The notes beneath the pieces are model-generated. The model worked only from the letters and a program-made list of their open reading frames with translations. It was not told where the DNA came from and ran no database searches. DNA of 64,000 nt from Flectonema sp. DT1601 (Eukaryota > Euglenozoa > Diplonemea > Diplonemida > Diplonemidae), in NCBI GenBank assembly GCA_964019425.1, contig OZ025822.1:620001-684000 (forward strand), in the 5' to 3' direction. Below, one piece after another: positions 3,708-46,101 of the stretch. The translations under genes and the position numbers were made by a program. Position 1 is the first letter of the stretch, and every line of letters starts with the position of its first letter.

Positions 3708-5468
3708 CTATCTGCTGGTGATGGTGAGTGGTTCAGGGACGCCAACATCGAAAAAATATCTCAATTTTTCAACCCGAATGCTGTCACTATTGTTCTGCTC
3801 ATCAACAACAATATCAGCGATGTTGGCTTCCCCACCGAGAAGCAGTGCAGTAGCGATCTTGTTAAAGTTGTCCCACTTCCCAACTCCACGAGACTCAAGT
3901 TCGTACATCCATTCTTCTGGATTACTGTTCTCAGTAGTTGGGATGACTTCGTACAGGACCAGAGTGATCCCATCATGAATAATAGTTTGATGAAATACAC
4001 AAATCTCAATCATCTCTTTCACATTTAAATACAATCCCTGTTCACATAACATCGGAACATTCATTTGACAACCTGCTCTTTCAACAACACCAACAAGGTG
4101 AGTCATCCTTCCAATAAAGCTGTATCTTCTGATGTTTTCACTCCCCAGATCCCCGCAGACAAGTTTTCCAGAGGCCATTCCAATATTAAGAGACAAGACT
4201 GAAGTTGTACCTTCTTGATAAGAAGATAAGATTGTGTCTGATGATCGGATGATGTTCTGACTGGCTTCCACGCTTGACATAGGATGGCTGCTGTGGTTTC
4301 TAGTTGCTCCAAAATTCGCATAAATTCTATCACCTAAGAACAAGTCAAGAGTTCCTCCGTGTTTCGTAATGATAGAACTACAGACAGAAACCATATCGTC
4401 AATAAGTGACTTGAATAGTTTCTGACTCTGTTCCAACACATCATAAGAATTCTTGATATTTATAATTATAATCGAAGCAGTTGTTACTACAAACTGTCTT
4501 CCAATCACAGGAACCTTTGCGTTCTCAGAGGCACGAGCCGATAAGGAGCTGCTGATACCCCTGCTTGCTTCACTGATATGCAAACTATGTACACTTTCGC
4601 GATCACCTTCAAGTTCACTTTCATTAGCAAAACATGATTGCGGTAAGTATGGTCGGTATGATTTTAAGTTAGCTAATATTCTTTCAAAAGAAGATTTCAA
4701 TTCTTCCGGAATCTCCGCCAACGCGAGTAATTCAGAAGCAAGTTCCAAATCAAATTTAGAAAGTGATGTGGCGATGTGATTAGCTGTATCAATGGAAGCT
4801 AGGATCCGTTTCTTTTCTTCCAAAACAGTGTATGCGAATCCCCTCGTACACATGAAATCAATTACCAAAACCATTAGCTGAGACCCTAACGTGGCCACAG
4901 CCTGGAATACGGTTCTGGCACAAGGAAGTGTCTCACAGTTGCAAATGTCTTGGCGACGTGATTCCTGACTGGCAACTCCCCACTCGAAGTTGTACATCCC
5001 AAATCGTGAAGTGCGTTCCACCGCATTTACAACCAACCAAAAACTACAAAAACAAACTACTGCTACGGATGTCGATGGCTTTGTTTCACAAACTAATAAA
5101 ATATCCGTCAGCAATACAAACAATGGCCAATGAGGGCTTCGTAATGTCAGCGACGCAACGAGGTCGGTCATCAAAAGAGGGACGCAGTGTGCGCAGCACA
5201 TGAGTTGCATAAAGGATTCAGTGGGTTGTAGCTTTAGCACACACAGGTAGAAGAATACAGCAATACACACAACAGATGAAAAACCAGTTGCTAGTCCCGC
5301 GAAAAAACCCTCAATTTTAACAATGCCCAACGTTGTCGGAAACAACACTATGGCTGCAATGATGTGAGAGCCCATCAAAACTCGCTTTCGTTTTATTTGT
5401 AAAGGAGTGTCGCCATCTTGTACGGCATAATGGATACAACGCTCGCAAATCTTCAAGAATGAATGCAT
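3708..5468 (-). CDS. Six-pass membrane protein with cyclase-like domain, copy 1 (586 aa)
   Basis: Downstream-most copy of the array. The first ATG (5468) gives MHSFLKICERC. It keeps the family architecture described under the copy at 8811-10574. Its membrane half is closest to copies 2 and 3: loop 1 reads TTLGIVKIEGFFAGLATG and the cysteine loop RRQDICNCETLPC. Unique points are the linker (ELEGDRESVHS, with fewer Ser-Glu dipeptides, then SLSARASEN) and TKHGGTLDLF where most copies have TKNKGTLDLF. The substituted active-site positions are the same as in its paralogues. Downstream the sequence goes straight into an A-rich run and a truncated gene end. The upstream block with TAAATAATGGATTAC is shared with the other copies. 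Confidence 0.85.
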   Translation of the reverse strand: MHSFLKICERCIHYAVQDGDTPLQIKRKRVLMGSHIIAAIVLFPTTLGIVKIEGFFAGLATGFSSVVCIAVFFYLCVLKLQPTESFMQLMCCAHCVPLLMTDLVASLTLRSPHWPLFVLLTDILLVCETKPSTSVAVVCFCSFWLVVNAVERTSRFGMYNFEWGVASQESRRQDICNCETLPCARTVFQAVATLGSQLMVLVIDFMCTRGFAYTVLEEKKRILASIDTANHIATSLSKFDLELASELLALAEIPEELKSSFERILANLKSYRPYLPQSCFANESELEGDRESVHSLHISEASRGISSSLSARASENAKVPVIGRQFVVTTASIIIINIKNSYDVLEQSQKLFKSLIDDMVSVCSSIITKHGGTLDLFLGDRIYANFGATRNHSSHPMSSVEASQNIIRSSDTILSSYQEGTTSVLSLNIGMASGKLVCGDLGSENIRRYSFIGRMTHLVGVVERAGCQMNVPMLCEQGLYLNVKEMIEICVFHQTIIHDGITLVLYEVIPTTENSNPEEWMYELESRGVGKWDNFNKIATALLLGGEANIADIVVDEQNNSDSIRVEKLRYFFDVGVPEPLTITSR

Positions 5469-5824
5469 TTGTGATCTGGTCACACCTGGAAAGGATTTAG
5501 CTTCATTTCAGAGTAGTAACTAAAATGCGTAAATAATGGATTACATTCGTACATAACAAAAATTATGTCAGTAAATGTATCTTGCCGAATATGGTAGTTC
5601 AGCGGGGTAAACTGATTGATTAGGTTTATACGAATATCTCTTGCATTGTATCAAAGCTCAATAACGAAATTAAAAAACTCATGATACAGTGACAAATAAT
5701 GTTAACAGGCTAACACTCTGCCAATGACGCACGTACTCCACATTAAAGTAAATGTGTCAAAATTATCTGTATACATGTTTCTTTTTCCATGTTGTCATTC
5801 AGCACGGAATTGATTTATTCAATT

Positions 5825-5935
5825 ACGAATTAATCGTGAGCCCTGGGAAACCAAAACCAGGTATAATGTAATACAGCGGAGTATAGGTTTCACCTATAGT
5901 CTAGTCAAGAAATAAATAACTTTTACCAAACTTGT
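5825..5935. repeat. Hairpin-bearing dispersed repeat
   Basis: Conserved block GAATTAATCGTGAGCCCTGG followed by an A-rich loop and CCAGG, which can fold as CCCTGG/CCAGGG around about 10 nt, then TATAATGTAATAC and ATAGGTTTCACCTATAGTC. Copies or partial copies are near 3549, 6826, 7888, 8653, 10930, 16035 and 37632. It is often found joined to cyclase gene ends. Confidence 0.7.
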
Positions 5936-5937
5936 AC

Positions 5938-6365: not shown

Positions 6366-6761
6366 AATCCCAAGGCACCCACCACGCTGCGTCATCCTAA
6401 GCCGGAAAGGAAAATTACTCGAAAGTCGGGACAGTTCGAACGTCAGCATAACAGCTTAACTACCCAACCATTACGTGCATCAGTCACAGTTAACCTGTAA
6501 CTTTCAACACGTAACAACCAGGATAATTCTCAATAAGGCTGCCGTCACCGTGAAGCTGCTACGAACATAACCCAACAAACTAGCAATTCCACAAATGATA
6601 ACACACCGAAAGGGGTTTGTGATTCCAGAAGAATTTCAACAAGATTGTAGTGACAGTGTAAATAAAATATTCGAATTAACGAGAGAGAACTCACAAATGG
6701 GTCTCCTAGGCTAAAAGGCTCTACAAAGTAAAAGAGTAACCGTAATGTGTAACGGGCAAGA

Positions 6762-8810: not shown

Positions 8811-10574
8811 CTATCTGCTGGTGATGGTGAGTGGTTCAGGGACGCCAACATCGAAAAAATATCTCAATTTTTCAACCCGAATGCTGTCACTATTGTTCTG
8901 CTCATCAACAACAATATCAGCGATGTTGGCTTGCCTACCGAGAAGCAGTGCAGTAGCGATCTTGTTAAAGTTGTCCCACTTCCCAACTCCACGAGACTCA
9001 AGTTCGTACATCCATTCTTCTGGATTACTGTTCTCAGTAGTTGGGATGACTTCGTACAGGACCAGAGTGATCCCATCATGAATAATAGTTTGATGAAATA
9101 CACAAATCTCAATCATCTCTTTCACATTTAAATACAATCCCTGTTCACATAACATCGGAACATTCATTTGACAACCTGCTCTTTCAACAACACCAACAAG
9201 GTGAGTCATCCTTCCAATAAAGCTGTATCTTCTGATGTTTTCACTCCCCAGATCCCCGCAGACAAGATTTCCAGAGGCCATTCCAATATTAAGAGACAAG
9301 ACTGAAGTTGTACCTTCTTGATAAGAAGATAAGATTGTGTCTGATGATCGGATGATGTTCTGACTGGCTTCCACGCTTGACATAGGATGGCTGCTGTGGT
9401 TTCTAGTTGCTCCAAAATTCGCATAAATTCTATCACCCAAGAACAAGTCAAGAGTTCCCTTGTTTTTCGTAATGATAGAACTACAGACAGAAACCATATC
9501 GTCAATAAGTGACTTGAATAGTTTCTGACTCTGTTCCAACACATCATAAGAATTCTTGATATTTATAATTATAATCGAAGCAGTTGTTACTACAAACTGT
9601 CTTCCAATCACAGGAACCTTTGCATTCCCAGTGCTAAGAGCCGATATGGTGCTGCTGATACTCCTGCTTGCTTCACTGATATGTAAACTATGTGCACTTT
9701 CACTTTCACTTTCACGTTCACTTTCATTAGCAAAACATGATTGCGGTAAGTATGGTCGGTATGATTTTAAGTTAGCTAATATTCTTTCAAAAGAAGATTT
9801 CAATTCTTCCGGAATCTCCGCCAACGCGAGTAATTCAGAAGCAAGTTCCAAATCAAATTTAGAAAGTGATGTGGCGATGTGATTAGCTGTATCAATGGAA
9901 GCTAGGATCCGTTTCTTTTCTTCCAAAACAGTGTATGCGAATCCCCTCGTACACATGAAATCAATTACCAAAACCATTAGCTGAGACCCTAACGTGGCCA
10001 CAGCCTGGAATACGGTTCTGGCACAAGGAAGTGTCTCACAGTTGCAAATGTCTTGGCGACGTGATTCCTGACTGGCAACTCCCCACTCGAAGTTGTACAT
10101 CCCAAATCGTGAAGTGCGTTCCACCGCATTTACAACCAACCAAAAACTACAAAAACAAACTACTGCTACGGATGTCGATGGCTTTGTTTCACAAACTAAT
10201 AAAACATCCGTCAGCAATACAAACAATGGCCAATGAGGGCTTCGTAATGTCAGCGACGCAACGAGGTCGGTCATCAAAAGAGGGACGCAGTGTGCGCAGC
10301 ACATGAGTTGCATAAAGGATTCAGTGGGTTGTAGCTTTAACACACACAGGTAGAAGAATACAGCAATACACACAACAGATGAAAAACCAGTTGCTAGTCC
10401 CGCGAAAAAACCCTCAATTTTAGCAATGCCCAACGTTATCGGAAACGACACCATGGCTGCAATGATGTGAGAGCCCATCAAAACTCGTTTTCGTTTTATT
10501 TGTAAAGGAGTGTCGCCATCTTGTACGGCATAATTGATACAACGCTCACAAATCTTCAAGAAACGCTGCAACAT
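8811..10574 (-). CDS. Six-pass membrane protein with cyclase-like domain, copy 2 (587 aa, reference copy)
   Basis: Start chosen at the first ATG (10574), 17 nt after an AG acceptor; the longer ORF would need a GTG. Order of parts: short basic cytosolic N-terminus (DTPLQIKRKRVL); about six membrane segments between residues 33 and 209; a loop before the last one with cysteines (ICNCETLPC); a helical linker ending in NLKSYRPYLPQS (268-279), typical of protist cyclase-domain proteins; a Ser/Glu linker (283-317); and a class III cyclase-like domain (about 327-510). Matched to that fold, SIIIINI carries Asn338 at the first metal Asp, LFLGD keeps Asp381 but has Leu at the purine-binding Lys, and THLVGVVE has His and Val at the catalytic Asn and Arg. 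The protein is probably a plasma-membrane or flagellar receptor-like protein. Whether it makes cAMP or cGMP is doubtful. Confidence 0.9.
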   Translation of the reverse strand: MLQRFLKICERCINYAVQDGDTPLQIKRKRVLMGSHIIAAMVSFPITLGIAKIEGFFAGLATGFSSVVCIAVFFYLCVLKLQPTESFMQLMCCAHCVPLLMTDLVASLTLRSPHWPLFVLLTDVLLVCETKPSTSVAVVCFCSFWLVVNAVERTSRFGMYNFEWGVASQESRRQDICNCETLPCARTVFQAVATLGSQLMVLVIDFMCTRGFAYTVLEEKKRILASIDTANHIATSLSKFDLELASELLALAEIPEELKSSFERILANLKSYRPYLPQSCFANESERESESESAHSLHISEASRSISSTISALSTGNAKVPVIGRQFVVTTASIIIINIKNSYDVLEQSQKLFKSLIDDMVSVCSSIITKNKGTLDLFLGDRIYANFGATRNHSSHPMSSVEASQNIIRSSDTILSSYQEGTTSVLSLNIGMASGNLVCGDLGSENIRRYSFIGRMTHLVGVVERAGCQMNVPMLCEQGLYLNVKEMIEICVFHQTIIHDGITLVLYEVIPTTENSNPEEWMYELESRGVGKWDNFNKIATALLLGRQANIADIVVDEQNNSDSIRVEKLRYFFDVGVPEPLTITSR

Positions 10575-13915: not shown

Positions 13916-15679
13916 CTATCTGCTGGTGATGGTGAGTGGTTCAGGGACGCCAACATCGAAAAAATATCTCAATTTTTCAACCCGAATGCTGTCACTATTG
14001 TTCTGCTCATCAACAACAATATCAGCGATGTTGGCTTGCCTACCGAGAAGCAGTGCAGTAGCGATCTTGTTAAAGTTGTCCCACTTCCCAACTCCACGAG
14101 ACTCAAGTTCGTACATCCATTCTTCTGGATTACTGTTCTCAGTAGTTGGGATGACTTCGTACAGGACCAGAGTGATCCCATCATGAATAATAGTTTGATG
14201 AAATACACAAATCTCAATCATCTCTTTCACATTTAAATACAATCCCTGTTCACATAACATCGGAACATTCATTTGACAACCTGCTCTTTCAACAACACCA
14301 ACAAGGTGAGTCATCCTTCCAATAAAGCTGTATCTTCTGATGTTTTCACTCCCCAGATCCCCGCAGACAAGATTTCCAGAGGCCATTCCAATATTAAGAG
14401 ACAAGACTGAAGTTGTACCTTCTTGATAAGAAGATAAGATTGTGTCTGATGATCGGATGATGTTCTGACTGGCTTCCACGCTTGACATAGGATGGCTGCT
14501 GTGGTTTCTAGTTGCTCCAAAATTCGCATAAATTCTATCACCCAAGAACAAGTCAAGAGTTCCCTTGTTTTTCGTAATGATAGAACTACAGACAGAAACC
14601 ATATCGTCAATAAGTGACTTGAATAGTTTCTGACTCTGTTCCAACACATCATAAGAATTCTTGATATTTATAATTATAATCGAAGCAGTTGTTACTACAA
14701 ACTGTCTTCCAATCACAGGAACCTTTGCATTCCCAGTGCTAAGAGCCGATATGGTGCTGCTGATACTCCTGCTTGCTTCACTGATATGTAAACTATGTGC
14801 ACTTTCACTTTCACTTTCACGTTCACTTTCATTAGCAAAACATGATTGCGGTAAGTATGGTCGGTATGATTTTAAGTTAGCTAATATTCTTTCAAAAGAA
14901 GATTTCAATTCTTCCGGAATCTCCGCCAACGCGAGTAATTCAGAAGCAAGTTCCAAATCAAATTTAGAAAGTGATGTGGCGATGTGATTAGCTGTATCAA
15001 TGGAAGCTAGGATCCGTTTCTTTTCTTCCAAAACAGTGTATGCGAATCCCCTCGTACACATGAAATCAATTACCAAAACCATTAGCTGAGACCCTAACGT
15101 GGCCACAGCCTGGAATACGGTTCTGGCACAAGGAAGTGTCTCACAGTTGCAAATGTCTTGGCGACGTGATTCCTGACTGGCAACTCCCCACTCGAAGTTG
15201 TACATCCCAAATCGTGAAGTGCGTTCCACCGCATTTACAACCAACCAAAAACTACAAAAACAAACTACTGCTACGGATGTCGATGGCTTTGTTTCACAAA
15301 CTAATAAAACATCCGTCAGCAATACAAACAATGGCCAATGAGGGCTTCGTAATGTCAGCGACGCAACGAGGTCGGTCATCAAAAGAGGGACGCAGTGTGC
15401 GCAGCACATGAGTTGCATAAAGGATTCAGTGGGTTGTAGCTTTAACACACACAGGTAGAAGAATACAGCAATACACACAACAGATGAAAAACCAGTTGCT
15501 AGTCCCGCGAAAAAACCCTCAATTTTAGCAATGCCCAACGTTATCGGAAACGACACCATGGCTGCAATGATGTGAGAGCCCATCAAAACTCGTTTTCGTT
15601 TTATTTGTAAAGGAGTGTCGCCATCTTGTACGGCATAATTGATACAACGCTCACAAATCTTCAAGAAACGCTGCAACAT
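13916..15679 (-). CDS. Six-pass membrane protein with cyclase-like domain, copy 3 (587 aa)
   Basis: The translation is the same as that of the copy at 8811-10574, residue for residue, and so are the antisense reading frames, so the DNA is the same or nearly so. It is the product of the 5,105-bp duplication. Either the duplication is very recent or the assembly repeated the block. Its upstream side is no longer part of the duplicated block beyond 16071; there it joins another spacer type that leads to copy 4. Confidence 0.88.
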   Translation of the reverse strand: MLQRFLKICERCINYAVQDGDTPLQIKRKRVLMGSHIIAAMVSFPITLGIAKIEGFFAGLATGFSSVVCIAVFFYLCVLKLQPTESFMQLMCCAHCVPLLMTDLVASLTLRSPHWPLFVLLTDVLLVCETKPSTSVAVVCFCSFWLVVNAVERTSRFGMYNFEWGVASQESRRQDICNCETLPCARTVFQAVATLGSQLMVLVIDFMCTRGFAYTVLEEKKRILASIDTANHIATSLSKFDLELASELLALAEIPEELKSSFERILANLKSYRPYLPQSCFANESERESESESAHSLHISEASRSISSTISALSTGNAKVPVIGRQFVVTTASIIIINIKNSYDVLEQSQKLFKSLIDDMVSVCSSIITKNKGTLDLFLGDRIYANFGATRNHSSHPMSSVEASQNIIRSSDTILSSYQEGTTSVLSLNIGMASGNLVCGDLGSENIRRYSFIGRMTHLVGVVERAGCQMNVPMLCEQGLYLNVKEMIEICVFHQTIIHDGITLVLYEVIPTTENSNPEEWMYELESRGVGKWDNFNKIATALLLGRQANIADIVVDEQNNSDSIRVEKLRYFFDVGVPEPLTITSR

Positions 15680-16884: not shown

Positions 16885-18660
16885 CTATCTGCTGGTGATG
16901 GTGAGTGGTTCAGGGACGCCAACATCGAAAAAAGATCTCAATCTTTCAACCCGAATGCTGTCACTATTGTTCTGCTTGTCAACAACAATATCAGCGATGT
17001 TGGCTTGCCTACCGAGAAGCAGTGCAGTAGCGATCTTGTTGAAGTTGTCCCACTTCCCAACTCCACGAGACTCAAGTTGGTACATCCATTCTTCTGGCTT
17101 ACTGCTCTTAGTAGTTGGGATGACTTCGTACAGGACCAGAGTGATCCCATCATGAATAATAGTTTGATGAAATACACAAATCTCAATCATCTCTTTCACA
17201 TTTGAATACAATCCCTGTTCACATAACATCGGAACATTCATTTGACAACCTGCTCTTTCAACAACACCAACAAGGTGAGTCATCCTTCCAATAAAGCTGT
17301 ATCTTCTGATGTTTTCACTCCCCAGATCCCCGCAGACAAGATTTCCAGAGGCCATTCCAATATTAAGAGACAAGACTGAAGTTGTACCTTCTTGATAAGA
17401 AGATAAGATTGTGTCTGATGATCGGATGATGTTCTGACTGGCTTCCACGCTTGACATAGGATGGCTGCTGTGGTTTCTAGTTGCTCCAAAATTCGCATAA
17501 ATTCTATCACCCAAGAACAAGTCAAGAGTTCCCTTGTTTTTCGTAATGATAGAACTACAGACAGAAACCATATCGTCAATAAGTGACTTGAATAGTTTCT
17601 GACTCCGTTGTAACACATCATAAGAATTCCTGATATTTATAATTATAATCGAAGCAGTTGTAACTACAAACTGTCTTCCAATCACAGGAACCTTTGCATT
17701 CCCAGTGCTAAGAGCCGATATGGTGCTGCTGATACCTCCTCCACTTGCTTCACTGATATGTAAACTATCTTCACTTTTACTACTTTCAATTTCAATTTCA
17801 CGTTCACCTTCATTAGCAAAACATGATTGCGGTAAGTATGGTCGGTATGATTTTAAGTTAGCTAATATTCTTTCAAAAGAAGATTTCAATTCTTCCGGAA
17901 TCTCCGCCAACGCGAGTAATTCAGAAGCAAGTTCCAAATCAAATTTAGAAAGTGATGTGGCGATGTGATTAGCTGTATCAATGGAAGCTAGGATCCGTTT
18001 CTTTTCTTCCAAAACAGTGTATGCGAATCCTCTCGTACACATGAAATCAAGTATTAAAACCACAAGCTGAGACCCTAACGTGGCCACAGCCTGGAATATG
18101 GTTCTGGCACAAGGAAGTGTGTCACAGTTGCAAATGCCTTGGCGACGTGTTTCTTGACTGGGAACTCCCCACTCGAAGTTGTACATCCCAAATCGAAAAA
18201 TGCGTTCCCCCGCATTTAATACCAACCAAACACTACAAAAACAAACTACTGCTACGGATGTCGATGGCTTTGTTTCACAAACTAATAAAATATCCGTCAG
18301 CAATACAAACAATGGCCAATGAGGGCTTCCCAATATCAGCGACGCAACGAGATCTATCATCAAAAGAGGGACGCAGTGTGCGCAGCATATGAGTTGAATA
18401 AAGAAATCAGTGGGTTGTAGCTTTAACACACACAGGTAGAAGAATACAACAACACACACAACAAATATCATACCTGTCGCTATTCCTGCGAAGTTTTTCT
18501 CAAAGTCAACAGCCCTTGCCGTTGCCGGAAACGACACCATGGCTGCTATAATATGAACGCCCATTAAAACTCGCTTTCGTTTTATTTGTAAAGGAGTGTC
18601 GCCATCTTGTACGGCATAATTGATACAACGCTCACAAATCTTCAAGAAACGCTGCAACAT
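16885..18660 (-). CDS. Six-pass membrane protein with cyclase-like domain, copy 4 (591 aa)
   Basis: ATG at 18660 (MLQRFLKICERC). Loop 1 differs strongly from copies 1-3 (TARAVDFEKNFAGIATGMIF), the region before the cysteine loop reads GERIFRFGMYNFEWGVPSQE, and the cysteine loop RRQGICNCDTLPC. The linker is of the EREIEIESSKSEDS type with an extra Gly-Gly (EASGGGISS). VLQRSQ replaces VLEQSQ at the start of the cyclase-like domain; this VLQRSQ form also appears in copies 6, 8, 9 and 11, which suggests block exchange between copies. The C-terminal 180 residues are otherwise almost unchanged from the other copies. Confidence 0.85.
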   Translation of the reverse strand: MLQRFLKICERCINYAVQDGDTPLQIKRKRVLMGVHIIAAMVSFPATARAVDFEKNFAGIATGMIFVVCVVVFFYLCVLKLQPTDFFIQLICCAHCVPLLMIDLVASLILGSPHWPLFVLLTDILLVCETKPSTSVAVVCFCSVWLVLNAGERIFRFGMYNFEWGVPSQETRRQGICNCDTLPCARTIFQAVATLGSQLVVLILDFMCTRGFAYTVLEEKKRILASIDTANHIATSLSKFDLELASELLALAEIPEELKSSFERILANLKSYRPYLPQSCFANEGEREIEIESSKSEDSLHISEASGGGISSTISALSTGNAKVPVIGRQFVVTTASIIIINIRNSYDVLQRSQKLFKSLIDDMVSVCSSIITKNKGTLDLFLGDRIYANFGATRNHSSHPMSSVEASQNIIRSSDTILSSYQEGTTSVLSLNIGMASGNLVCGDLGSENIRRYSFIGRMTHLVGVVERAGCQMNVPMLCEQGLYSNVKEMIEICVFHQTIIHDGITLVLYEVIPTTKSSKPEEWMYQLESRGVGKWDNFNKIATALLLGRQANIADIVVDKQNNSDSIRVERLRSFFDVGVPEPLTITSR

Positions 18661-28343: not shown

Positions 28344-30119
28344 CTATCTGCTGGTGATGGTGAGTCGTTCAGGGACGCCAACATCGAAAAAGGATCTCAA
28401 TATTTCAACCCGACCGTTGTCACTATTGTTCTGCTTGTCAACAACAATATCAGCGATGTTGGCTTCCCTACCAAGAAGCAGTGCAGTAGCGATCTTGTTG
28501 AAGTTGTCCCACTTCCCAACTCCACGAGACTCAAGTTGGTACATCCATTCTTCTGGATTACTGTTCTCAGTAGTTGGGATGACTTCGTACAGGACCAGAG
28601 TGATCCCATCATGAATAATAGTTTGATGAAATACACAAATCTCAATCATCTCTTTCACATTTGAATACAATCCCTGTTCACATAACATCGGAACATTCAT
28701 TTGACAACCTGCTCTTTCAACAACACCAACAAGGTGAGTCATCCTTCCAATAAAGCTGTATCTTCTGATGTTTTCACTCCCCAGATCCCCGCAGACAAGT
28801 TTTCCAGAGGCCATTCCAATATTAAGAGACAAGACTGAAGTTGTACCTTCTTGATAAGAAGATAAGATTGTGTCTGATGATCGGATGATGTTCTGACTGG
28901 CTTCCACGCTTGACATAGGATGGCTGCTGTGGTTTCTAGTTGCTCCAAAATTCGCATAAATTCTATCACCCAAGAACAAGTCAAGAGTTCCCTTGTTTTT
29001 CGTAATGATAGAACTACAGACAGAAACCATATCGTCAATAAGTGACTTGAATAGTTTCTGACTCCGTTGCAACACATCATAAGAATTCCTGATATTTATA
29101 ATTATAATCGAAGCAGTTGTTACTACAAACTGTCTTCCAATCACAGGAACCTTTGCATTCCCAGTGCTAAGAGCCGATATGGTGCTGCTGATACCTCCTC
29201 CACTTGCTTCACTGATATGTAAACTATCTTCACTTTTACTACTTTCACTTTCACTTTCAAGTTCACCTTCATTAGCAAAACATGATTGCGGTAAGTATGG
29301 TCGGTATGATTTTAAGTTAGCTAATATTCTTTCAAAAGAAGATTTCAATTCTTCCGGAATCTCCGCCAACGCGAGTAATTCAGAAGCAAGTTCCAAATCA
29401 AATTTAGAAAGTGATGTGGCGATGTGATTAGCTGTATCAATGGAAGCTAGGATCCGTTTCTTTTCTTCCAAAACAGTGTATGCGAATCCTCTCGTACACA
29501 TGAATTCAATTACCAAAACCAGCATCTGAGACCCTAACGTAGTTGCAGCGTAGAATATAGTTGTGCCACAAGGAAGTGTCTCACAGTTGCAAAGTAAATC
29601 CCGACGCGTTTCTTGACTAGGAACTCCCCACTCCAAGTTGTACATCCCAAATCGTGAAGCGCGTTCCACCGCATTTAATACCAACCAAACACTACAAAAA
29701 CAAACTACTGCTACGGATGTCGATGGCGTTGTTTCACAAACTAATAAAATATCCGTCAGTAATACATAAATTGGCCAATGAGGGCTTCCCAATGTCATCG
29801 ACGTAACGAGGTCAGTCATCAAAAGAGGGACGCAGTGTGCGCAGCACATGAGTTGAATAAAGAAATCAGTGGGTTGTAGCTTTAACACACACAGGTAGAA
29901 GAATACAACAAGACACACAAAAGATGAAAAACCATTTCCTAGTCCCGTGAAATGTTTCTCATAGTCAACGGCACTTGCTGCTAACGGAAACAGCAACATG
30001 GCTGCAATGATGTGAGAGCCCATCAAAACTCGTTTTCGTTTTATTTGTAGGGGAGTGTCGCCATCTTGTACGGCATAATTGATACAACGCTCACAAATCT
30101 TCAAGAAACGCTGCAACAT
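28344..30119 (-). CDS. Six-pass membrane protein with cyclase-like domain, copy 8 (591 aa)
   Basis: ATG at 30119. Loop 1 is LAASAVDYEKHFTGLGNG, one residue shorter than in copies 6 and 7. Distinct changes: CETTPSTS (shared with copy 12), VIEFMCT for VIDFMCT, linker GELESESESSKSEDS with Gly-Gly, and a C-terminus PERLTITSR where all others have PEPLTITSR. The 3' flank has a small deletion (AAGAGGCCAGGCAGCAG for the usual AGGGGAGTGAGGGCAGCAG). Confidence 0.85.
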   Translation of the reverse strand: MLQRFLKICERCINYAVQDGDTPLQIKRKRVLMGSHIIAAMLLFPLAASAVDYEKHFTGLGNGFSSFVCLVVFFYLCVLKLQPTDFFIQLMCCAHCVPLLMTDLVTSMTLGSPHWPIYVLLTDILLVCETTPSTSVAVVCFCSVWLVLNAVERASRFGMYNLEWGVPSQETRRDLLCNCETLPCGTTIFYAATTLGSQMLVLVIEFMCTRGFAYTVLEEKKRILASIDTANHIATSLSKFDLELASELLALAEIPEELKSSFERILANLKSYRPYLPQSCFANEGELESESESSKSEDSLHISEASGGGISSTISALSTGNAKVPVIGRQFVVTTASIIIINIRNSYDVLQRSQKLFKSLIDDMVSVCSSIITKNKGTLDLFLGDRIYANFGATRNHSSHPMSSVEASQNIIRSSDTILSSYQEGTTSVLSLNIGMASGKLVCGDLGSENIRRYSFIGRMTHLVGVVERAGCQMNVPMLCEQGLYSNVKEMIEICVFHQTIIHDGITLVLYEVIPTTENSNPEEWMYQLESRGVGKWDNFNKIATALLLGREANIADIVVDKQNNSDNGRVEILRSFFDVGVPERLTITSR

Positions 30120-30515: not shown

Positions 30516-32288
30516 CTATCTGCTGGTGATGGTGAGTGGTTCAGGGACGCCAACATCGAAAAAAGATCTCAATATTTCAACCCGACCGTTGTCACTATTG
30601 TCCTGCTTGTCAACAACAATATCAGCGATGTTGGCTTCCCTACCGAGAAGCAGTGCAGTAGCGATCTTGTTAAAGTTGTCCCACTTCCCAACTCCACGAG
30701 ACTCAAGTTCGTACATCCATTCTTCTGGATTACTGTTCTCAGTAGTTGGGATGACTTCGTACAGGACCAGAGTGATCCCATCATGAATAATAGTTTGATG
30801 AAATACACAAATCTCAATCATCTCTTTCACATTTAAATACAATCCCTGTTCACATAACATCGGAACATTCATTTGACAACCTGCTCTTTCAACAACACCA
30901 ACAAGGTGAGTCATCCTTCCAATAAAGCTGTATCTTCTGATGCGTTCACTCCCCAGATCCCCGCAGACAAGTTTTCCAGAGGCCATTCCAATATTAAGAG
31001 ACAAGACTGAAGTTGTACCTTCTTGATAAGAAGATAAGATTGTGTCTGATGATCGGATGATGTTCTGACTGGCTTCCACGCTTGACATAGGATGGCTGCT
31101 GTGGTTTCTAGTTGCTCCAAAATTCGCATAAATTCTATCACCCAAGAACAAGTCAAGAGTTCCCTTGTTTTTCGTAATGATAGAACTACAGACAGAAACC
31201 ATATCGTCAATAAGTGACTTGAATAGTTTCTGACTCCGTTGCAACACATCATAAGAATTCCTGATATTTATAATTATAATCGAAGCAGTTGTTACTACAA
31301 ACTGTCTTCCAATCACAGGAACCTTTGCATTCCCAGTGCTAAGGGCCGATATGGTGCTGCTGATACCCCTGCTTGCTTCACTGATATGTAAACTATCTTC
31401 ACTTTTACTACTTTCACTTTCACTTTCACGTTCACTTTCATTAGCAAAACATGATTGCGGTAAGTATGGTCGGTATGATTTTAAGTTAGCTAATATTCTT
31501 TCAAAAGAAGATTTCAATTCTTCCGGAATCTCCGCCAACGCGAGTAATTCAGAAGCAAGTTCCAAATCAAATTTAGAAAGTGATGTGGCGATGTGATTAG
31601 CTGTATCAATGGAAGCTAGGATCCGTTTCTTTTCTTCCAAAACAGTGAATGCGAATCCCCTCGTACACATGAAATCAATTACCAAAACCATTAGCTGAGA
31701 CCCTAACGTAATTACAGAGTAGAATACAGTTGTGCCACAAGGAAGTGTCTCACAGTTGCAAAGTATATCCCAACGTGTTTCCTGACTAGGAACTCCCCAC
31801 TCCAAGCTGTACATCCCAAATCGAAAAATGCGTTCCCCTGCATTTAATACCAACCAAAAACTGCAAAAACAAACTACTGCTACGGATGTCGATGGCTTTG
31901 TTTCACAAACTAATAAAATATCCGTCAGCAATACATAAATTGGCCAACGAGGGTTTTCCAATGTCGTCGACGCAACGAGGTCGGTCATCAAAAGAGGGAC
32001 GCAGTGTGCGCAGCACATGAGTTGAATAAAGAAATCAGTGGGTTGTAGCTTTAACACACACAGGTAGAAGAATATAACAAGACACACAACAAATGAAAAA
32101 CCAGTTGCTAGTCCCTTGATATGTTTCTCATAGTCAACAGCACTTGCCGCTGACGGAAACAACACTATGGCTGCAATGATGTGAGAGCCCATCAAAACTC
32201 GTTTTCGTTTTATTTGTAAAGGTGTGTCGCCATCTTGTACGGCATAATTAATACAACACTCGAAAATCTTCAAGAAACGCTGCAACAT
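30516..32288 (-). CDS. Six-pass membrane protein with cyclase-like domain, copy 9 (590 aa)
   Basis: ATG at 32288. The N-terminus reads LKIFECCINYAVQ, a form shared with copies 11 and 12 (others LKICERC). Loop 1 is SAASAVDYEKHIKGLATG, and the cysteine loop RWDILCNCETLPCGTTVFYS. In the cyclase-like domain GSERIRRYSFIG replaces GSENIRRYSFIG. The tail has VDKQDNSDNG. Linker ERESESESSKSEDS. Confidence 0.85.
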   Translation of the reverse strand: MLQRFLKIFECCINYAVQDGDTPLQIKRKRVLMGSHIIAAIVLFPSAASAVDYEKHIKGLATGFSFVVCLVIFFYLCVLKLQPTDFFIQLMCCAHCVPLLMTDLVASTTLENPRWPIYVLLTDILLVCETKPSTSVAVVCFCSFWLVLNAGERIFRFGMYSLEWGVPSQETRWDILCNCETLPCGTTVFYSVITLGSQLMVLVIDFMCTRGFAFTVLEEKKRILASIDTANHIATSLSKFDLELASELLALAEIPEELKSSFERILANLKSYRPYLPQSCFANESERESESESSKSEDSLHISEASRGISSTISALSTGNAKVPVIGRQFVVTTASIIIINIRNSYDVLQRSQKLFKSLIDDMVSVCSSIITKNKGTLDLFLGDRIYANFGATRNHSSHPMSSVEASQNIIRSSDTILSSYQEGTTSVLSLNIGMASGKLVCGDLGSERIRRYSFIGRMTHLVGVVERAGCQMNVPMLCEQGLYLNVKEMIEICVFHQTIIHDGITLVLYEVIPTTENSNPEEWMYELESRGVGKWDNFNKIATALLLGREANIADIVVDKQDNSDNGRVEILRSFFDVGVPEPLTITSR

Positions 32289-32669: not shown

Positions 32670-34442
32670 CTATCTGCTGGTGATGGTGAGTGGTTCAGGG
32701 ACGCCAACATCGAAAAAAGATCTCAATATTTCAACCCGACCGTTGTCACTATTGTTCTGCTTGTCAACAACAATATCAGCGATGTTGGCTTCCCTACCGA
32801 AAAGCAGTGCAGTAGCGATCTTGTTGAAGTTGTCCCACTTCCCAACTCCACGAGACTCAAGTTGGTACATCCATTCTTCTGGTTTACTGTTCTCAGTAGT
32901 TGGGATGACTTCGTACAGGACCAGAGTGATCCCATCATGAATAATAGTTTGATGAAATACACAAATCTCAATCATCTCTTTCACATTTAAATACAATCCC
33001 TGTTCACATAACATCGGAACATTCATTTGACAACCTGCTCTTTCAACAATACCAACAAGGTGAGTCATCCTTCCAATAAAGCTGTATCTTCTGATGTTTT
33101 CACTCCCCAGATCCCCGCAGACAAGTTTTCCAGAGGCCATTCCAATATTAAGAGACAAGACTGAAGTTGTACCTTCTTGATAAGAAGATAAGATTGTGTC
33201 TGATGATCGGATGATGTTCTGACTGGCTTCCACGCTTGACATAGGATGGCTGCTGTGGTTTCTAGTTGCTCCAAAATTCGCATAAATTCTATCACCCAAG
33301 AACAAGTCAAGAGTTCCCTTGTTTTTCGTAATGATAGAACTACAGACAGAAACCATATCGTCAATAAGTGACTTGAATAGTTTCTGACTCTGTTCCAACA
33401 CATCATAAGAATTCCTGATATTTATAATTATAATCGAAGCAGTTGTTACTACAAACTGTCTTCCAATCACAGGAACCTTTGCATTCCCAGTGCTAAGAAC
33501 CGATATGGTGCTGCTGATACTCCTGCTTGCTTCACTGATATGTAAACTATCTTCACTTTTACTACTTTCAATTTCAATTTCACGTTCACCTTCATTAGCA
33601 AAACATGATTGCGGTAAGTATGGTCGGTATGATTTTAAGTTAGCTAATATTCTTTCAAAAGAAGATTTCAATTCTTCCGGAATCTCCGCCAACGCGAGTA
33701 ATTCAGAAGCAAGTTCCAAATCAAATTTAGAAAGTGATGTGGCGATGTGATTAGCTGTATCAATGGAAGCTAGGATCCGTTTCTTTTCTTCTAAAACAGT
33801 GTATGCGAATCCCCTCGTACACATGAAATCAAGTATTAAAACCATCAGTTGAGACAATAACGAAGTTACAGAGTAGAGCACAGTTGCGCCACAAGGAAGT
33901 GTCTCACAGTTGCAAAGTAAATCCCGACGTGATTCCTGACTGGGAACTCCCCACTCCAAGCTGTACATCCCAAATCGTGAAGCGCGTTCCACCGCATTTA
34001 ATACCAACCAAACACAACAAAAACAAACTACTGCTACGGATGTCGATGGCTTTGTCTCACAAACTAATAAAATATCCGTCAGTAATACAACAATTGGCCA
34101 ACGAGGGCTTCCCAATGTCAGCGACGTAACGAGGTCGGTTATTAAAAGAGGAATGCAGTGTGCGCAGCATATGAGTTGAATAAAGGATTCAGTGGGTTGT
34201 AGCTTTAACACACACAGGTAGAAGAATACAGCAATACACACAACAAATGAAAAACCAGCACCTATCCCCGTGAAATGTTTCTCATAGGTACCAGCACTTG
34301 CCGTTGACGGAAACAACACTATGGCTGCCATGATGTGAGAGCCTATCAAAACTCGTTTTCGTTTTATTTGTAAGGGAGTGTCGCCATCTTGTACGGCATA
34401 ATTGATACAACGCTCACTAATCTTCAAGAAACGCTGCAACAT
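32670..34442 (-). CDS. Six-pass membrane protein with cyclase-like domain, copy 10 (590 aa)
   Basis: The family start (ATG at 34442, MLQRFLKISERC) is used here. A 2-nt deletion just before it (GGTCACCTGG in place of GGTCACACCTGG on the plus strand) opens the frame upstream to about 34529, but that extension runs through the acceptor region and is probably not translated. Loop 1 is STASAGTYEKHFTGIGAG, and the cysteine loop RRDLLCNCETLPCGATVLYS, followed by TSLLSQ. LVGIVERAG replaces LVGVVERAG. Confidence 0.85.
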   Translation of the reverse strand: MLQRFLKISERCINYAVQDGDTPLQIKRKRVLIGSHIMAAIVLFPSTASAGTYEKHFTGIGAGFSFVVCIAVFFYLCVLKLQPTESFIQLICCAHCIPLLITDLVTSLTLGSPRWPIVVLLTDILLVCETKPSTSVAVVCFCCVWLVLNAVERASRFGMYSLEWGVPSQESRRDLLCNCETLPCGATVLYSVTSLLSQLMVLILDFMCTRGFAYTVLEEKKRILASIDTANHIATSLSKFDLELASELLALAEIPEELKSSFERILANLKSYRPYLPQSCFANEGEREIEIESSKSEDSLHISEASRSISSTISVLSTGNAKVPVIGRQFVVTTASIIIINIRNSYDVLEQSQKLFKSLIDDMVSVCSSIITKNKGTLDLFLGDRIYANFGATRNHSSHPMSSVEASQNIIRSSDTILSSYQEGTTSVLSLNIGMASGKLVCGDLGSENIRRYSFIGRMTHLVGIVERAGCQMNVPMLCEQGLYLNVKEMIEICVFHQTIIHDGITLVLYEVIPTTENSKPEEWMYQLESRGVGKWDNFNKIATALLFGREANIADIVVDKQNNSDNGRVEILRSFFDVGVPEPLTITSR

Positions 34443-35409: not shown

Positions 35410-37185
35410 CTATCTGCTGGTGATGGTGAGTGGTTCAGGGACGCCAACATCGAAAAAAGATCTCAATCTTTCAACCCGACCGTTGTCACTATTGTTCTGC
35501 TTGTCAACAACAATATCAGCGATGTTGGCTTGCCTACCAAGAAGCAGTGCAGTAGCGATCTTGTTAAAGTTGTCCCACTTCCCAACTCCACGAGACTCAA
35601 GTTGGTACATCCATTCTTCTGGTTTACTGCTCTCAGTAGTTGGGATGACTTCGTACAGGACCAGAGTGATCCCATCATGAATAATAGTTTGATGAAATAC
35701 ACAAATCTCAATCATCTCTTTCACATTTAAATACAATCCCTGTTCACATAACATCGGAACATTCATTTGACAACCTGCTCTTTCAACAACACCAACAAGG
35801 TGAGTCATCCTTCCAATAAAGCTGTATCTTCTGATGTTTTCACTCCCCAGATCCCCGCAGACAAGTTTTCCAGAGGCCATTCCAATATTAAGAGACAAGA
35901 CTGAAGTTGTACCTTCTTGATAAGAAGATAAGATTGTGTCTGATGATCGGATGATGTTCTGACTGGCTTCCACGCTTGACATAGGATGGCTGCTGTGGTT
36001 TCTAGTTGCTCCAAAATTCGCATAAATTCTATCACCCAAGAACAAGTCAAGAGTTCCCTTGTTTTTCGTAATGATAGAACTACAGACAGAAACCATATCG
36101 TCAATAAGTGACTTGAATAGTTTCTGACTCCGTTGCAACACATCATAAGAATTCCTGATATTTATAATTATAATCGAAGCAGTTGTTACTACAAACTGTC
36201 TTCCAATCACAGGAACCTTTGCATTCCCAGTGCTAAGAGCCGATATGGTGCTGCTGATACCTCCTCCACTTGCTTCACTGATATGTAAACTATCTTCACT
36301 TTTACTACTTTCAATTTCAATTTCACGTTCACTTTCATTAGCAAAACATGATTGAGGTAAGTATGGTCGGTATGATTTTAAGTTAGCTAATATTCTTTCA
36401 AAAGAAGATTTCAATTCTTCCGGAATCTCCGCCAACGCGAGTAATTCAGAAGCAAGTTCCAAATCAAATTTAGAAAGTGATGTGGCGATGTGATTAGCTG
36501 TATCAATGGAAGCTAGGATCCGTTTCTTTTCTTCTAAAACAGTGTATGCGAATCCCCTCGTACACATGAAATCAATTACCAAAACCATTAGCTGAGACCC
36601 TAACGAAGTTACAGAGTAGAGCACAGTTGTGCCACAAGGAAGTGTCTCACAGTTGCAAAGTAAATCCCGACGTGTTTCTTGACTAGGAACTCCCCACTCG
36701 AAGTTGTACATCCCAAATCGAAAAATGCGTTCCCCTGCATTTAATACCAACCAAAAACAACAAAAACAAACTACTGCTACGGATGTCGATGGCTTTGTCT
36801 CACAAACTAATAAAACATCCGTCAGTAATACAACAATTGGCCAACGAGGGCTTCCCAATGTCAGCGACGTAACGAGGTCGGTTATTAAAAGAGGAATGCA
36901 ATGTGCGCAGCATATGAGTTGAATAAAGAAATCAGTGGGTTGTAGCTTTAACACACACAGGTAGAAGAATATAAGAACACACACAACAGATGAAAAACCA
37001 TTTGCTAATGCCGCGAAATGTTTCTCATAGGTACCAACCCTTGCCGTTGACGGAAACAACACTATGGCTGCAATGATGTGAGAGCCCATCAAAACTCGTT
37101 TTCGTTTTATTTGTAAAGGAGTGTCGCCATCTTGTACGGCATAATTAATACAACACTCGAAAATCTTCAAGAAACGCTGCAACAT
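35410..37185 (-). CDS. Six-pass membrane protein with cyclase-like domain, copy 11 (591 aa)
   Basis: ATG at 37185 (MLQRFLKIFECC). Loop 1 is STARVGTYEKHFAALANG; membrane segment 2 has SSVVCVLIFFYL. The region before the cysteine loop matches copy 4 (GERIFRFGMYNFEWGVPSQE), while the loop itself (RRDLLCNCETLPCGTTVLYS) matches copy 10, again a mosaic. Linker EREIEIESSKSEDS with Gly-Gly; VLQRSQ form of the domain start. Its upstream flank carries the TAAATAATGG block and then the GAATATGGGGTTCGG repeat. Confidence 0.85.
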   Translation of the reverse strand: MLQRFLKIFECCINYAVQDGDTPLQIKRKRVLMGSHIIAAIVLFPSTARVGTYEKHFAALANGFSSVVCVLIFFYLCVLKLQPTDFFIQLICCAHCIPLLITDLVTSLTLGSPRWPIVVLLTDVLLVCETKPSTSVAVVCFCCFWLVLNAGERIFRFGMYNFEWGVPSQETRRDLLCNCETLPCGTTVLYSVTSLGSQLMVLVIDFMCTRGFAYTVLEEKKRILASIDTANHIATSLSKFDLELASELLALAEIPEELKSSFERILANLKSYRPYLPQSCFANESEREIEIESSKSEDSLHISEASGGGISSTISALSTGNAKVPVIGRQFVVTTASIIIINIRNSYDVLQRSQKLFKSLIDDMVSVCSSIITKNKGTLDLFLGDRIYANFGATRNHSSHPMSSVEASQNIIRSSDTILSSYQEGTTSVLSLNIGMASGKLVCGDLGSENIRRYSFIGRMTHLVGVVERAGCQMNVPMLCEQGLYLNVKEMIEICVFHQTIIHDGITLVLYEVIPTTESSKPEEWMYQLESRGVGKWDNFNKIATALLLGRQANIADIVVDKQNNSDNGRVERLRSFFDVGVPEPLTITSR

Positions 37186-43466: not shown

Positions 43467-43471
43467 GTAAA
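43467..43471. repeat. Right target-site duplication GTAAA
   Basis: Begins the right flank GTAAAAACAGTAACAACTTT, which continues as in the uninterrupted element at about 6032. Confidence 0.75.
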
Positions 43472-44328
43472 AACAGTAACAACTTTTATGCATTAAAAAA
43501 CAAAATTAATATCAAGTATTTGACTGAAAAAAATGTTTGTAGTTATTAATCAAAGAGAAATTACGCTTAGAAAAAAGAAAATACTCGCATATGCGAGGGG
43601 ACTTGAATAAATAAATCAGGGATAACACGCAACAACCTAAATATGAGTCATTGTAACCAGCCAACGGTGAGACTCTCAGTTGATGTCACAGGGCGGTTCA
43701 TTGTATCGGATTGTGATGTACTTTTACGTTGTTTGATTTCCTGTTTGTGAAAGAACTAAGCAACTAATACACAATTCCAAATACAAAATTCCAACCTACT
43801 CATCGTGCCTTCGATAGTGTTCTGAATGTTAAGATGTTGTAATCTCAGTGTAGTTTATAAATGATAACACACCGAAAGGAGTTTGTGAATTCGGAAGAAT
43901 TTCAACAAGATAGTAGTGACAGTGTAAATAAAATATTTGAATTAACGACAGAGAACTCAAGTTATAAACAAACCCCAAATAGGTCTCCGAGGCTAAAAAG
44001 GTTCTGAACGACAGAAAGGGAAACCGTAACGCGTAACGTCGGGCAACGGGCAAGAGGGGATTGAATGTTTGAATTTGTAAAATACAACTGTTTTAGATCG
44101 CGTTAACATAGCGATAGTTTAACATCTGTTAAGGATACAGTGACTATGGTGATGCTGCGGCAAGGGGGGATAACTATTTGATTTTGTACGTAAAATACAA
44201 ATGTATTGTATCATAACAACATAACGATAATTTAACATTAGTTCTGAGATACAGTGACTAGGTGTGATGCTTAACTTAGCCTTTTAAAGTAACTATTAGG
44301 GCGGCAAGGGGGGAGTGAGGGCAGCAGT
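43472..44328. repeat. Right half of the split element plus spacer repeats
   Basis: 43472-43570 continues the element interrupted at 38502 (CAAAATTAATATCAAGTA). Common 3' spacer blocks follow to about 44050. Then come two related blocks, CATAGCGATAGTTTAACATC (44062-44160, as at 16762) and CATAACGATAATTTAACATT (44163-44298). No gene is seen. Confidence 0.75.
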
Positions 44329-46101
44329 CTATCTGCTGGTGATGGTGAGTGGTTCAGGGACGCCAACATCGAAAAAGGATCTCAATATTTCAACCCGACC
44401 GTTGTCACTATTGTTCTGCTTGTCAACAATATCAGCGATGTTGGCTTCCCTACCGAGAAGCAGTGCAGTAGCGATCTTGTTGAAGTTGTCCCACTTCCCA
44501 ACTCCACGAGACTCAAGTTCGTACATCCATTCTTCTGGATTACTGTTCTCAGTAGTTGGGATGACTTCGTACAGGACCAGAGTGATCCCATCATGAATAA
44601 TAGTTTGATGAAATACACAAATCTCAATCATCTCTTTCACATTTAAATACAATCCCTGTTCACATAACATCGGAACATTCATTTGACAACCTGCTCTTTC
44701 AACAACACCAACAAGGTGAGTCATCCTTCCAATAAAGCTGTATCTTCTGATGTTTTCACTCCCCAGATCCCCGCAGACAAGTTTTCCAGAGGCCATTCCA
44801 ATATTAAGAGACAAGACTGAAGTTGTACCTTCTTGATAAGAAGATAAGATTGTGTCTGATGATCGGATGATGTTCTGACTGGCTTCCACGCTTGACATAG
44901 GATGGCTGCTGTGGTTTCTAGTTGCTCCAAAATTCGCATAAATTCTATCACCCAAGAACAAGTCAAGAGTTCCCTTGTTTTTCGTAATGATAGAACTACA
45001 GACAGAAACCATATCGTCAATAAGTGACTTGAATAGTTTCTGACTCTGTTCCAACACATCATAAGAATTCTTGATATTTATAATTATAATCGAAGCAGTT
45101 GTTACTACAAACTGTCTTCCAATTACAGGAACCTTTGCGTTCTCAGTGCTAAGAGCCGATAAGGAGCTGCTGATACCTCCACTTCCACTTGCTTCACTGA
45201 TACGTAAACTATGTGCACTTTCACTTTCACTTTCGCTTTCACTTTCATTAGCAAAACATGATTGCGGTAAGTATGGTCGGTATGATTTTAAGTTAGCTAA
45301 TATTCTTTCAAAAGAAGATTTCAATTCTTCCGGAATCTCCGCCAACGCGAGTAATTCAGAAGCAAGTTCCAAATCAAATTTAGAAAGTGATGTGGCGATG
45401 TGATTAGCTGTATCAATGGAAGCTAGGATCCGTTTCTTTTCTTCTAAAACAGTGTATGCGAATCCCCTCGTACACATGAAATCAATTACCAAAACCATTA
45501 GCTGAGACCCTAACGTAGTTGCAGCGTAGAATATAGTTGTGCCACAAGGAAGTGTCTCACAGTTGCAAAGTAAATCCCGACGTGATTCCTGACTGGAAAC
45601 TCCCCACTCCAAGTTGTACATCCCAAATCGTAAAGTGCGTTCCACCGCATTTAATACCAACCAAACACAACAAAAACAAACTACTGCTACGGATGTCGAT
45701 GGCGTTGTTTCACAAACTAATAAAATATCCGTCAGCAATACATAAATTGGCCAATGAGGGCTTCCTAACGTCAGCGACACAACGAGGTCGGTCATCAAAA
45801 GAGGGACGCAGTGTGCGCAGCACATGAGTTGAATAAAGAAATCAGTGGGTTGTAGCTTTAACACACACAGGTAGAAGAATATAACAAGACTCACAACAGA
45901 TGAACAACCAGTTGCTATTCCCGAGAAATGTTTCTCATGATTACTATTAAGTGACGATATCGTTGCCGGAAACAATAACATGGCCGTTATGATGTGAGAG
46001 CCTATCAAAACTCGTTTTCGTTTTATTTGTAGGGGAGTGTCGCCATCTTGTACGGCATAATTGATACAACACTCGAAAATCTTCAGGAAACACTTCAACA
46101 T
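44329..46101 (-). CDS. Six-pass membrane protein with cyclase-like domain, copy 12 (590 aa)
   Basis: Upstream-most copy of the array and separated from the rest by the retroelement. ATG at 46101 (MLKCFLKIFECC). Loop 1 is the longest and most divergent (TISSLNSNHEKHFSGIATG), and membrane segment 2 has CSSVVSLVIFF. The cysteine loop is RRDLLCNCETLPCGTTIFYA. Linker is the Ser-Glu form (ESESESESAHSLRISEASGSGG). One residue is lost near the C-terminus (ADIVDKQNN for ADIVVDKQNN). Upstream of the acceptor CTTTTCCAG the sequence no longer matches the other copies, so it marks the array edge and may carry its own leader region. Confidence 0.85.
   Translation of the reverse strand: MLKCFLKIFECCINYAVQDGDTPLQIKRKRVLIGSHIITAMLLFPATISSLNSNHEKHFSGIATGCSSVVSLVIFFYLCVLKLQPTDFFIQLMCCAHCVPLLMTDLVVSLTLGSPHWPIYVLLTDILLVCETTPSTSVAVVCFCCVWLVLNAVERTLRFGMYNLEWGVSSQESRRDLLCNCETLPCGTTIFYAATTLGSQLMVLVIDFMCTRGFAYTVLEEKKRILASIDTANHIATSLSKFDLELASELLALAEIPEELKSSFERILANLKSYRPYLPQSCFANESESESESESAHSLRISEASGSGGISSSLSALSTENAKVPVIGRQFVVTTASIIIINIKNSYDVLEQSQKLFKSLIDDMVSVCSSIITKNKGTLDLFLGDRIYANFGATRNHSSHPMSSVEASQNIIRSSDTILSSYQEGTTSVLSLNIGMASGKLVCGDLGSENIRRYSFIGRMTHLVGVVERAGCQMNVPMLCEQGLYLNVKEMIEICVFHQTIIHDGITLVLYEVIPTTENSNPEEWMYELESRGVGKWDNFNKIATALLLGREANIADIVDKQNNSDNGRVEILRSFFDVGVPEPLTITSR

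Follow-up and report, generated by a model that had tools for sequence, protein, structure and literature searches.

How can neighbouring genes keep one half of their protein nearly identical while the other half diverges? This question is raised by a 64,000-nucleotide stretch of a probably diplonemid genome (contig OZ025822.1, positions 620,001 to 684,000, forward strand; hereafter the window), whose minus strand carries, between positions 3708 and 46101, twelve paralogous long open frames, all co-directional, encoding proteins of 586–591 amino acids (aa) counted from the ATG. An earlier note had described these genes as twelve co-directional paralogues of a membrane cyclase-like protein with a near-constant C-terminal half, homogenised and reshuffled by gene conversion, and had read them as surface receptors. 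No internal stop was found in any of the 12 frames, and a pseudogene array is rejected on this ground. The description of the locus holds. The reading that we favour, and hold to be fairly probable, is that the window contains one of several tandem arrays of diplonemid six-transmembrane (6TM) pseudocyclase receptors, in which the inner half is homogenised and the membrane domains diverge and recombine.

We determined the silent divergence along the genes from 11 distinct copies (copy 3, with a coding sequence identical to that of copy 2, was left out here and in the flank, recombination, between-locus, profile and tree analyses, and kept in the alignment of the 12 genes and in the protein identities between arrays). 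Synonymous divergence (dS) was 0.142 in the membrane half (codons 1–212) versus 0.018 in the cytosolic half (codons 213–282 and 331–594), and none of 5000 codon permutations attained this 7.9-fold ratio, so that the near-constancy claimed for the C half and the unevenness of divergence both hold. The linker in between (codons 283–330) was variable again (dS 0.114), with a 6-bp repeat detected by TRF in five copies. Because the constancy of the C half includes silent sites, it reflects homogenisation, apparently by gene conversion, and not constraint on the protein alone. Moreover, the ratio of nonsynonymous to synonymous divergence (dN/dS) was similar in the two halves (0.77 for codons 1–215, 0.79 for the C half without the linker), and stronger selection on the protein therefore does not explain the constancy in this array. 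The upstream flanks were moderately diverged over the first ∼100 bases (0.08–0.12) and differed widely between groups of copies farther out (0.44–0.57), and downstream of the genes copies 1–3 and 12 have a different sequence from copies 4–11. The homogenised block is thus smaller than the whole repeat unit.

We then considered the rest of the genome (89.5 Mb, 92 contigs). Genome searches, which give lower bounds, returned at least 81 family members: 13 on contig C43, which carries the window, 17 on C36, 12 on C64, 14 on C30, 11 on C15, four on C24, three each on C61 and C53, and single members on C74, C18, C9 and C84. In C36 (16 copies tested; copy 13, which has no N terminus, was left out of the recombination, dS, protein-identity, between-locus, profile and tree analyses) dS was 0.303 in the membrane half versus 0.034 in the C half, and in C64 (11 of 12 copies used, a truncated one being left out and one started at its second ATG) it was 0.327 versus 0.029. 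The outer-to-inner silent ratios of the three arrays were 7.9, 8.8 and 11.4 (C43 lowest), and C36 and C64 repeat the pattern with different sequences: the median silent differences between the three arrays were 0.57–0.89, with the minimum in the linker.

The same pattern was present in catalytic relatives. All 150 candidates listed, of 216 in the genome, scored above the PF00211 cut-off. Eighteen proteins from ten loci, together with P0072 from a protein search, have six transmembrane (TM) helices, a cytosolic helix, a YRPYLP-type motif, a first cyclase domain (C1), a degenerate second one (C2) and a tail. Their C1 is canonical, with KTIGD (Lys and Asp) and N-x-A-x-R in 19 of 19 and the metal-A pattern FTDL/FTDI in 16 of 19. 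In hhalign comparisons (local mode, shuffled controls) the membrane domain and helix of the array family matched those of the catalytic proteins with probability 100 (E = 1.8e-58), and the array C half matched their C2 with probability 96, which shows at the profile level that it is akin to C2; an origin as a relic of C1 was rejected (probability 0.5). By profile, then, the array family corresponds to 6TM-helix-C1-C2 cyclases (∼750 aa) minus the catalytic C1. Five tandem groups of the catalytic genes (13 genes, 11 within-array pairs) have membrane domains with a median identity of 48%. The median silent difference of these pairs was 0.67 in the membrane domain (0.10–0.82), 0.00 in the helix (up to 0.12) and 0.03 in C1 (up to 0.16), as against medians of 0.75–0.78 in each part for the 109 pairs formed between loci, a set that takes in three single genes. 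In the seven pairs profiled, nucleotide divergence fell from 0.40–0.73 in the block 20–11 codons ahead of the TM6 anchor to 0.00 in the block 10–19 codons past it; in one pair, the 579 bases that start at codon +2 show no difference at all. Altogether the silent drop at the TM6 border was seen in 8 of 8 arrays tested (three pseudocyclase, five catalytic), although its strength varies. The array genes thus undergo half-gene homogenisation with a drop at the end of TM6, and the proposal that conversion homogenises the inner half is strengthened by its recurrence in two further pseudocyclase arrays and five catalytic ones.

Do the membrane halves recombine as well? In a test of the PHI (pairwise homoplasy index) type, 0 of 1000 permutations were as low as observed for the membrane half of C43, and 3 and 7 per 1000 for those of C36 and C64; the signal was weaker in the C halves of C43, C36 and C64 (p = 0.056, 0.015 and 0.049). 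Shared runs at p ≤ 0.01 (uncorrected) were found in 17 of 55 copy pairs, in agreement with the mosaic combinations suggested before. The example given for them, copy 11 as part copy 4 and part copy 10, was recovered in one part: copy 11 is nearest to copy 10 over codons 73–144, and its likeness to copy 4 further on was seen by alignment view alone. A finer case is provided by copies 1 and 2. Spacers 1–2 and 2–3, compared along 3342 bp, have an identity of 99.97% and not one substitution, yet copies 1 and 2 themselves are separated by 38 clustered coding substitutions, some of which are common to copy 12 and a distant 13th copy, others to many copies and about half to none of those compared. 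The simplest reading is that patchy import accounts for these differences.

We next turn to the protein. AlphaFold2 models (mean predicted local distance difference test (pLDDT) 81.6 and 87.5) show six TM helices that lead into a transducing helix in the cytosol, and no large ectodomain is predicted. Loop 1 and the loop with the CNC motif would be external provided that the N terminus is cytosolic, as suggested by the basic N terminus and the six predicted helices. A Foldseek search with the membrane domain alone gave no match at E ≤ 0.001. The variation had been placed in the loops and the linker; both do vary, but so do the membrane helices (dN 0.123 versus 0.134 in the external loops). Across 21 regions, uncorrected for multiple testing, dN/dS was 0.93 in the external loops and 0.39 in the more constrained cytosolic parts of the membrane half, and it exceeded 1 with support in TM2 (2.43, bootstrap 1.18–8.56) and in codons 41–69 (1.58, bootstrap 1.04–2.64), a segment picked post hoc from the sliding profile. 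Could the locus, then, be a dosage array of non-receptor membrane proteins, structural or transport ones for instance, whose membrane part drifts near-neutrally and whose homogenisation is a by-product of tandem arrangement? The dN/dS of 0.82 in the membrane helices (0.57–1.18), which is compatible with relaxed drift, would fit this, as would the lack of a predicted large ectodomain and the description of concerted evolution as pervasive in tandem arrays of Trypanosoma brucei (PMC1855330). Nevertheless, all 12 frames are intact, some membrane residues are invariant across all 52 aligned homologues (alignments comprised 30 and 52 of 75 homologue matches, and in a third case a window fragment and 42, chosen for spread), six helices with a transducing helix are the layout of regulated cyclases, and every array tested has its silent drop at the border of TM6. 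We therefore regard a dosage array as an unlikely explanation, if one to be kept in mind.

The position of the drop raises a second possibility, that N halves from other arrays or elsewhere were fused to a resident engine. The drop at TM6 in every profile made speaks for such sensor import, and in silent sites the sensors of 7 of the 11 catalytic pairs (0.66–0.82) are nearly as diverged as those of different loci (median 0.78). However, trees of 16 and 38 genes united the sensor halves of each array in a single clade, and did so for all five catalytic and all three pseudocyclase arrays tested. The sensors thus seem to have diverged within their own arrays. This speaks for a converted engine, and we reject import as the main route and give it a rather low probability. 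Isoforms of TRINITY_DN3065 in EukProt, probably from another species, look similar (P0079 versus P0081/P0082: membrane 35%, helix 100%, C1 81–92% identical). Other isoform pairs are mixed, with 90–100% in the helix and just 21% in a short C2 overlap, and since Trinity can create chimaeras we take the transcripts as supportive only.

A class III cyclase active site has two metal-binding Asp residues, a substrate-binding Lys and the transition-state Asn and Arg. The C half of the array proteins adopts the class III catalytic-domain fold, so the description as cyclase-like holds for the fold; it does not extend to the active-site residues, most of which are lost. In 51 aligned rows the metal-A Asp was replaced throughout (Asn in 50, Ser in one), the Lys and the transition-state Asn were found in 0 of 51 and the Arg in one, and the metal-B Asp was kept in 50. 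The domain thus seems to be a pseudocyclase. Might the proteins still be enzymes, alone or in heterodimers with an active partner that supplies the missing residues? The complete fold and the retained metal-B Asp speak for it, but with the metal-A Asp, Lys and Asn gone from every row and the Arg from 50, the domain supplies neither complete half of a class III active site, and we think this improbable. Finally, plain tandem duplicates with a C half kept by purifying selection on the protein, with no need for conversion, can hardly be what we see and are rejected as the sole explanation, for although the helix protein is conserved between arrays too (mean identity 64–83%) and the C half of C36 has a dN/dS of 0.37 versus 0.64 in its N half, silent sites are quiet within arrays and near saturation between them, and C43 has a dN/dS of about 0.8 in both halves.

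What might a non-catalytic domain do? P0091 (C11:948827-951793) combines a family-type membrane domain and helix, a degenerate domain and a kinase domain in one protein. Its degenerate domain matched the family C half with hhalign probability 93 (E = 3.1e-7), compared with 0.4 for C1 and ≤0.5 for shuffled controls, and the closest solved chain to its kinase is MAP3K5. Twenty frames, P0091 included, matched both the pseudocyclase stretch and a kinase (for 4 of the 20, one or more of the matching rows showed stops), and four of them also matched the membrane region. The gene fusion in P0091 hints at a possible use of the degenerate domain in signalling by kinases. In the mechanism that we propose, the membrane domain would act as the sensor, and the TM6 helix would convey its state to the pseudocyclase domain. 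This domain would not work as an enzyme but would dimerise and signal, and its targets could be catalytic cyclases or the pseudocyclase-kinase proteins. Conversion would keep the inner halves exchangeable as partners while the sensors diversify. A bolder version, in which the pseudocyclase is the shared output of a whole repertoire, with any-to-any pairing that includes the pseudocyclase-MAP3K proteins, combinatorial array-specific complexes and signalling through kinases, not cyclic AMP, is speculative and in our judgement rather doubtful. Such pseudocyclases coupled to active kinases would be the mirror image of the animal receptor guanylate cyclases, which are composed of a pseudokinase and an active cyclase.

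Several observations weigh against the pseudocyclase-receptor reading or narrow it. With regard to homogenisation, a ratio like 7.9 has been termed limited conversion in protocadherins (PMC2764143). The downstream spacer part is also close among copies 4–11 (0.03–0.06), so that in these copies the homogenised block may extend past the stop codon, and assembly could itself add to the homogeneity. The lower dN/dS in the C half of C36 means that constraint contributes there. The effect was weaker in the three pairs of the catalytic array C6 (membrane silent difference 0.17–0.28) and in the pair C1b–C1c (0.10), support for the sensor clade was just 0.06 in C46 and 0.73 in C36, and all eight tandem arrays tested belong to the cyclase superfamily. 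As for diversification, the PHI-type test gave no significant signal for the linker (p = 1.0) or for the C half of C43, the ratio in the membrane helices is one that drift could give, and positive selection is backed in a limited way, for TM2 and one post hoc segment alone. On the side of function, the domain may still bind nucleotide through the retained metal-B Asp, the putative kinase link comes from homology, P0091 is matched better by the family profile than by the catalytic C2 profile (probability 42), and the role as surface receptors is a putative one.

The coordinates of the genes and of the parts of copy 12 are given in the table. Upstream of all 12 genes there is a CAG followed by GTGTGACCAGATCACAA (11 of 12) and the ATG; in copy 10 this leader is 15 nt instead of 17, i.e. 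two bases shorter. The CAG would be a trans-splice acceptor, judging by the spliced-leader biology of the host, and the GTG starts in the open reading frame (ORF) list are unlikely, the ATG after the leader being favoured; with this start, the end at 46101 given in the earlier note fits copy 12. A 20-base euglenozoan spliced-leader pattern had 727 matches in the genome (≤1 mismatch) versus 0 for the reversed control. The matches lie partly in tandem repeats of ∼610–623 bp, and both stretches read also carry 5S rRNA genes. The exon sequence is ACCAACGATTCTAAAGCTACAGTTTCTGTACTTTATTG, which we take to be the diplonemid form. In Diplonema papillatum the spliced-leader RNA gene shares its repeat with 5S rRNA and U2 (PMC10161547), and from the leader and its repeat the host is probably a diplonemid.

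Table. Positions in the window of the array genes and of the segments of copy 12
Feature	Positions	Strand	Evidence
Array copy 1 (586 aa from ATG)	3708..5468	-	ORF list, alignment
Array copy 2	8811..10574	-	ORF list, alignment
Array copy 3 (coding sequence identical to copy 2)	13916..15679	-	alignment
Array copy 4	16885..18660	-	ORF list, alignment
Array copy 5	20439..22208	-	ORF list, alignment
Array copy 6	23995..25770	-	ORF list, alignment
Array copy 7	26172..27947	-	ORF list, alignment
Array copy 8	28344..30119	-	ORF list, alignment
Array copy 9	30516..32288	-	ORF list, alignment
Array copy 10	32670..34442	-	ORF list, alignment
Array copy 11	35410..37185	-	ORF list, alignment
Array copy 12 (590 aa, protein P0001, modelled)	44329..46101	-	ORF list, alignment, AlphaFold2
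Copy 12 leader, 17 nt, putative acceptor CAG to ATG	46102..46118	-	upstream comparison of 12 copies
Copy 12 six-helix membrane domain, variable, codons 1-212	45466..46101	-	AlphaFold2 helices; array dS 0.142
Copy 12 cytosolic helix region to YRPYLPQSC, constant, codons 213-282	45256..45465	-	dS 0.017; model
Copy 12 Ser/Glu linker, variable, low confidence, codons 283-330	45112..45255	-	pLDDT <50 at 283-325; dS 0.114
Copy 12 class III cyclase-fold domain, constant, without most catalytic residues, codons 331-522	44536..45111	-	fold and residue checks
Copy 12 C-terminal tail, EWMY motif, stop	44329..44535	-	profile/alignment

Copies 1–3 (3708–15679) form repeat units of 5.1 kb with a 20-bp tandem repeat in the spacers. 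Copies 2 and 3 are identical not only in coding sequence but also over adjoining stretches of 3281 bp (one side) and 392 bp (other side), which reflects either a very recent duplication or an assembly effect. A LINE-like (long interspersed nuclear element) sequence with reverse transcriptase and RNase H open frames lies between copies 11 and 12 (40370–43482). On the plus strand (28137–35730), antisense open frames of 170–175 aa over the 3′ ends of copies 8–11 are probably a by-product of conserved coding sequence. The minus strand carries all 19 window frames of at least 250 aa, an arrangement that polycistronic clusters would lead one to expect; besides the array and the LINE-like element, they include an RCC1-repeat protein, a tetratricopeptide repeat protein and, assigned by eye, an HSP70 with a GDEL end, as well as a 1353-aa frame at 53373–57434. 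A dual-specificity phosphatase (50122–50838) is encoded on this strand too. In the window, Rfam gave no RNA family and ARAGORN no tRNA. A catalytic two-domain 6TM cyclase (C43:606750-609188, L036) shares the strand of the array and lies ∼14.5 kb away from it. The 13th copy on C43 (C43:86441-88207, L030), ∼535 kb off, has a membrane half closest to copy 5 and a C half near-identical to the array. Two equal-scoring members on C15 (C15:692988-694673 and C15:701471-703156), in opposite orientation and ∼7 kb apart, are likely an inverted duplication. Defective copies occur elsewhere: one at C30:347656 has an in-frame TGA, one in C64 is truncated and one in C36 has no N terminus.

Finally, we asked how this family compares with known systems. 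Trypanosome receptor-type adenylate cyclases are membrane-bound products of multigene families, often in tandem, in which an active cyclase domain is joined by just one TM helix to a large ectodomain. They are thus likewise multigene membrane cyclase receptors of Euglenozoa, whereas the window family has six helices, no large ectodomain and lost catalytic residues. With mammalian membrane adenylate cyclases and Rv1625c it shares the 6TM anchor, the transducing helix and the cyclase fold; unlike them, it has mostly lost the catalytic residues, has one 6TM unit with one degenerate domain and occurs in tandem arrays with diversified anchors. The catalytic 6TM-helix-C1-C2 cyclases of the same genome share the membrane domain, the helix, a C2-like domain and the silent drop at TM6 but keep the canonical C1, which the window family lacks. 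The large lineage-specific expansion of class III nucleotidyl cyclases in Euglena gracilis is another euglenozoan parallel; the section describing it covers architectures with BLUF, HAMP and Cache domains, and neither degenerate C-terminal domains nor homogenised gene halves come up there (PMC6366073). The paper on the Diplonema papillatum genome does not use the word 'cyclase' in its main text (PMC10161547), and in the open-licence literature searched we found neither 'pseudocyclase', which may be described outside it, nor half-gene homogenisation tied to a cyclase anchor and a dead output domain.

The evolutionary pattern itself is known in kind from protocadherin clusters (PMC2764143), and arrays in trypanosomes commonly show concerted evolution (PMC1855330). 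In clustered protocadherins, judged by dS per domain, the membrane-near part is homogenised by conversion and the outer parts diverge, with ratios of high to low dS from 38 to >1000 in fugu and zebrafish and of 1.6–7.9 in coelacanth, elephant shark and anole (PMC2764143). The array members likewise have a lower silent divergence in the inner part than in the outer one, more strongly so in most catalytic pairs. The protocadherins are, however, unrelated proteins, and their alpha and gamma clusters share constant exons via splicing, whereas the single open frame of each of the 12 window genes includes a C half of its own.

The function of the TM regions of membrane adenylate cyclases has been given as unknown (PMC9433096), a receptor function of these anchors has been proposed (PMC9552081), and a 6TM quorum sensor placed on Rv1625c brought the enzyme under ligand control (PMC4821796). 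The arrays provide an independent, evolutionary line on this question: in 8 of 8 the anchor has diverged, the engine is near-constant and the change comes at the anchor-helix junction. Since dozens of naturally varying anchors sit on engines that are near-identical, the receptor idea becomes directly testable by swaps. Diplonemids have been called among the most abundant and little-known marine microeukaryotes (PMC10161547), and this probable diplonemid would possess a large family of cyclase receptors that are apparently non-catalytic and possibly coupled to MAP3K-like kinases.

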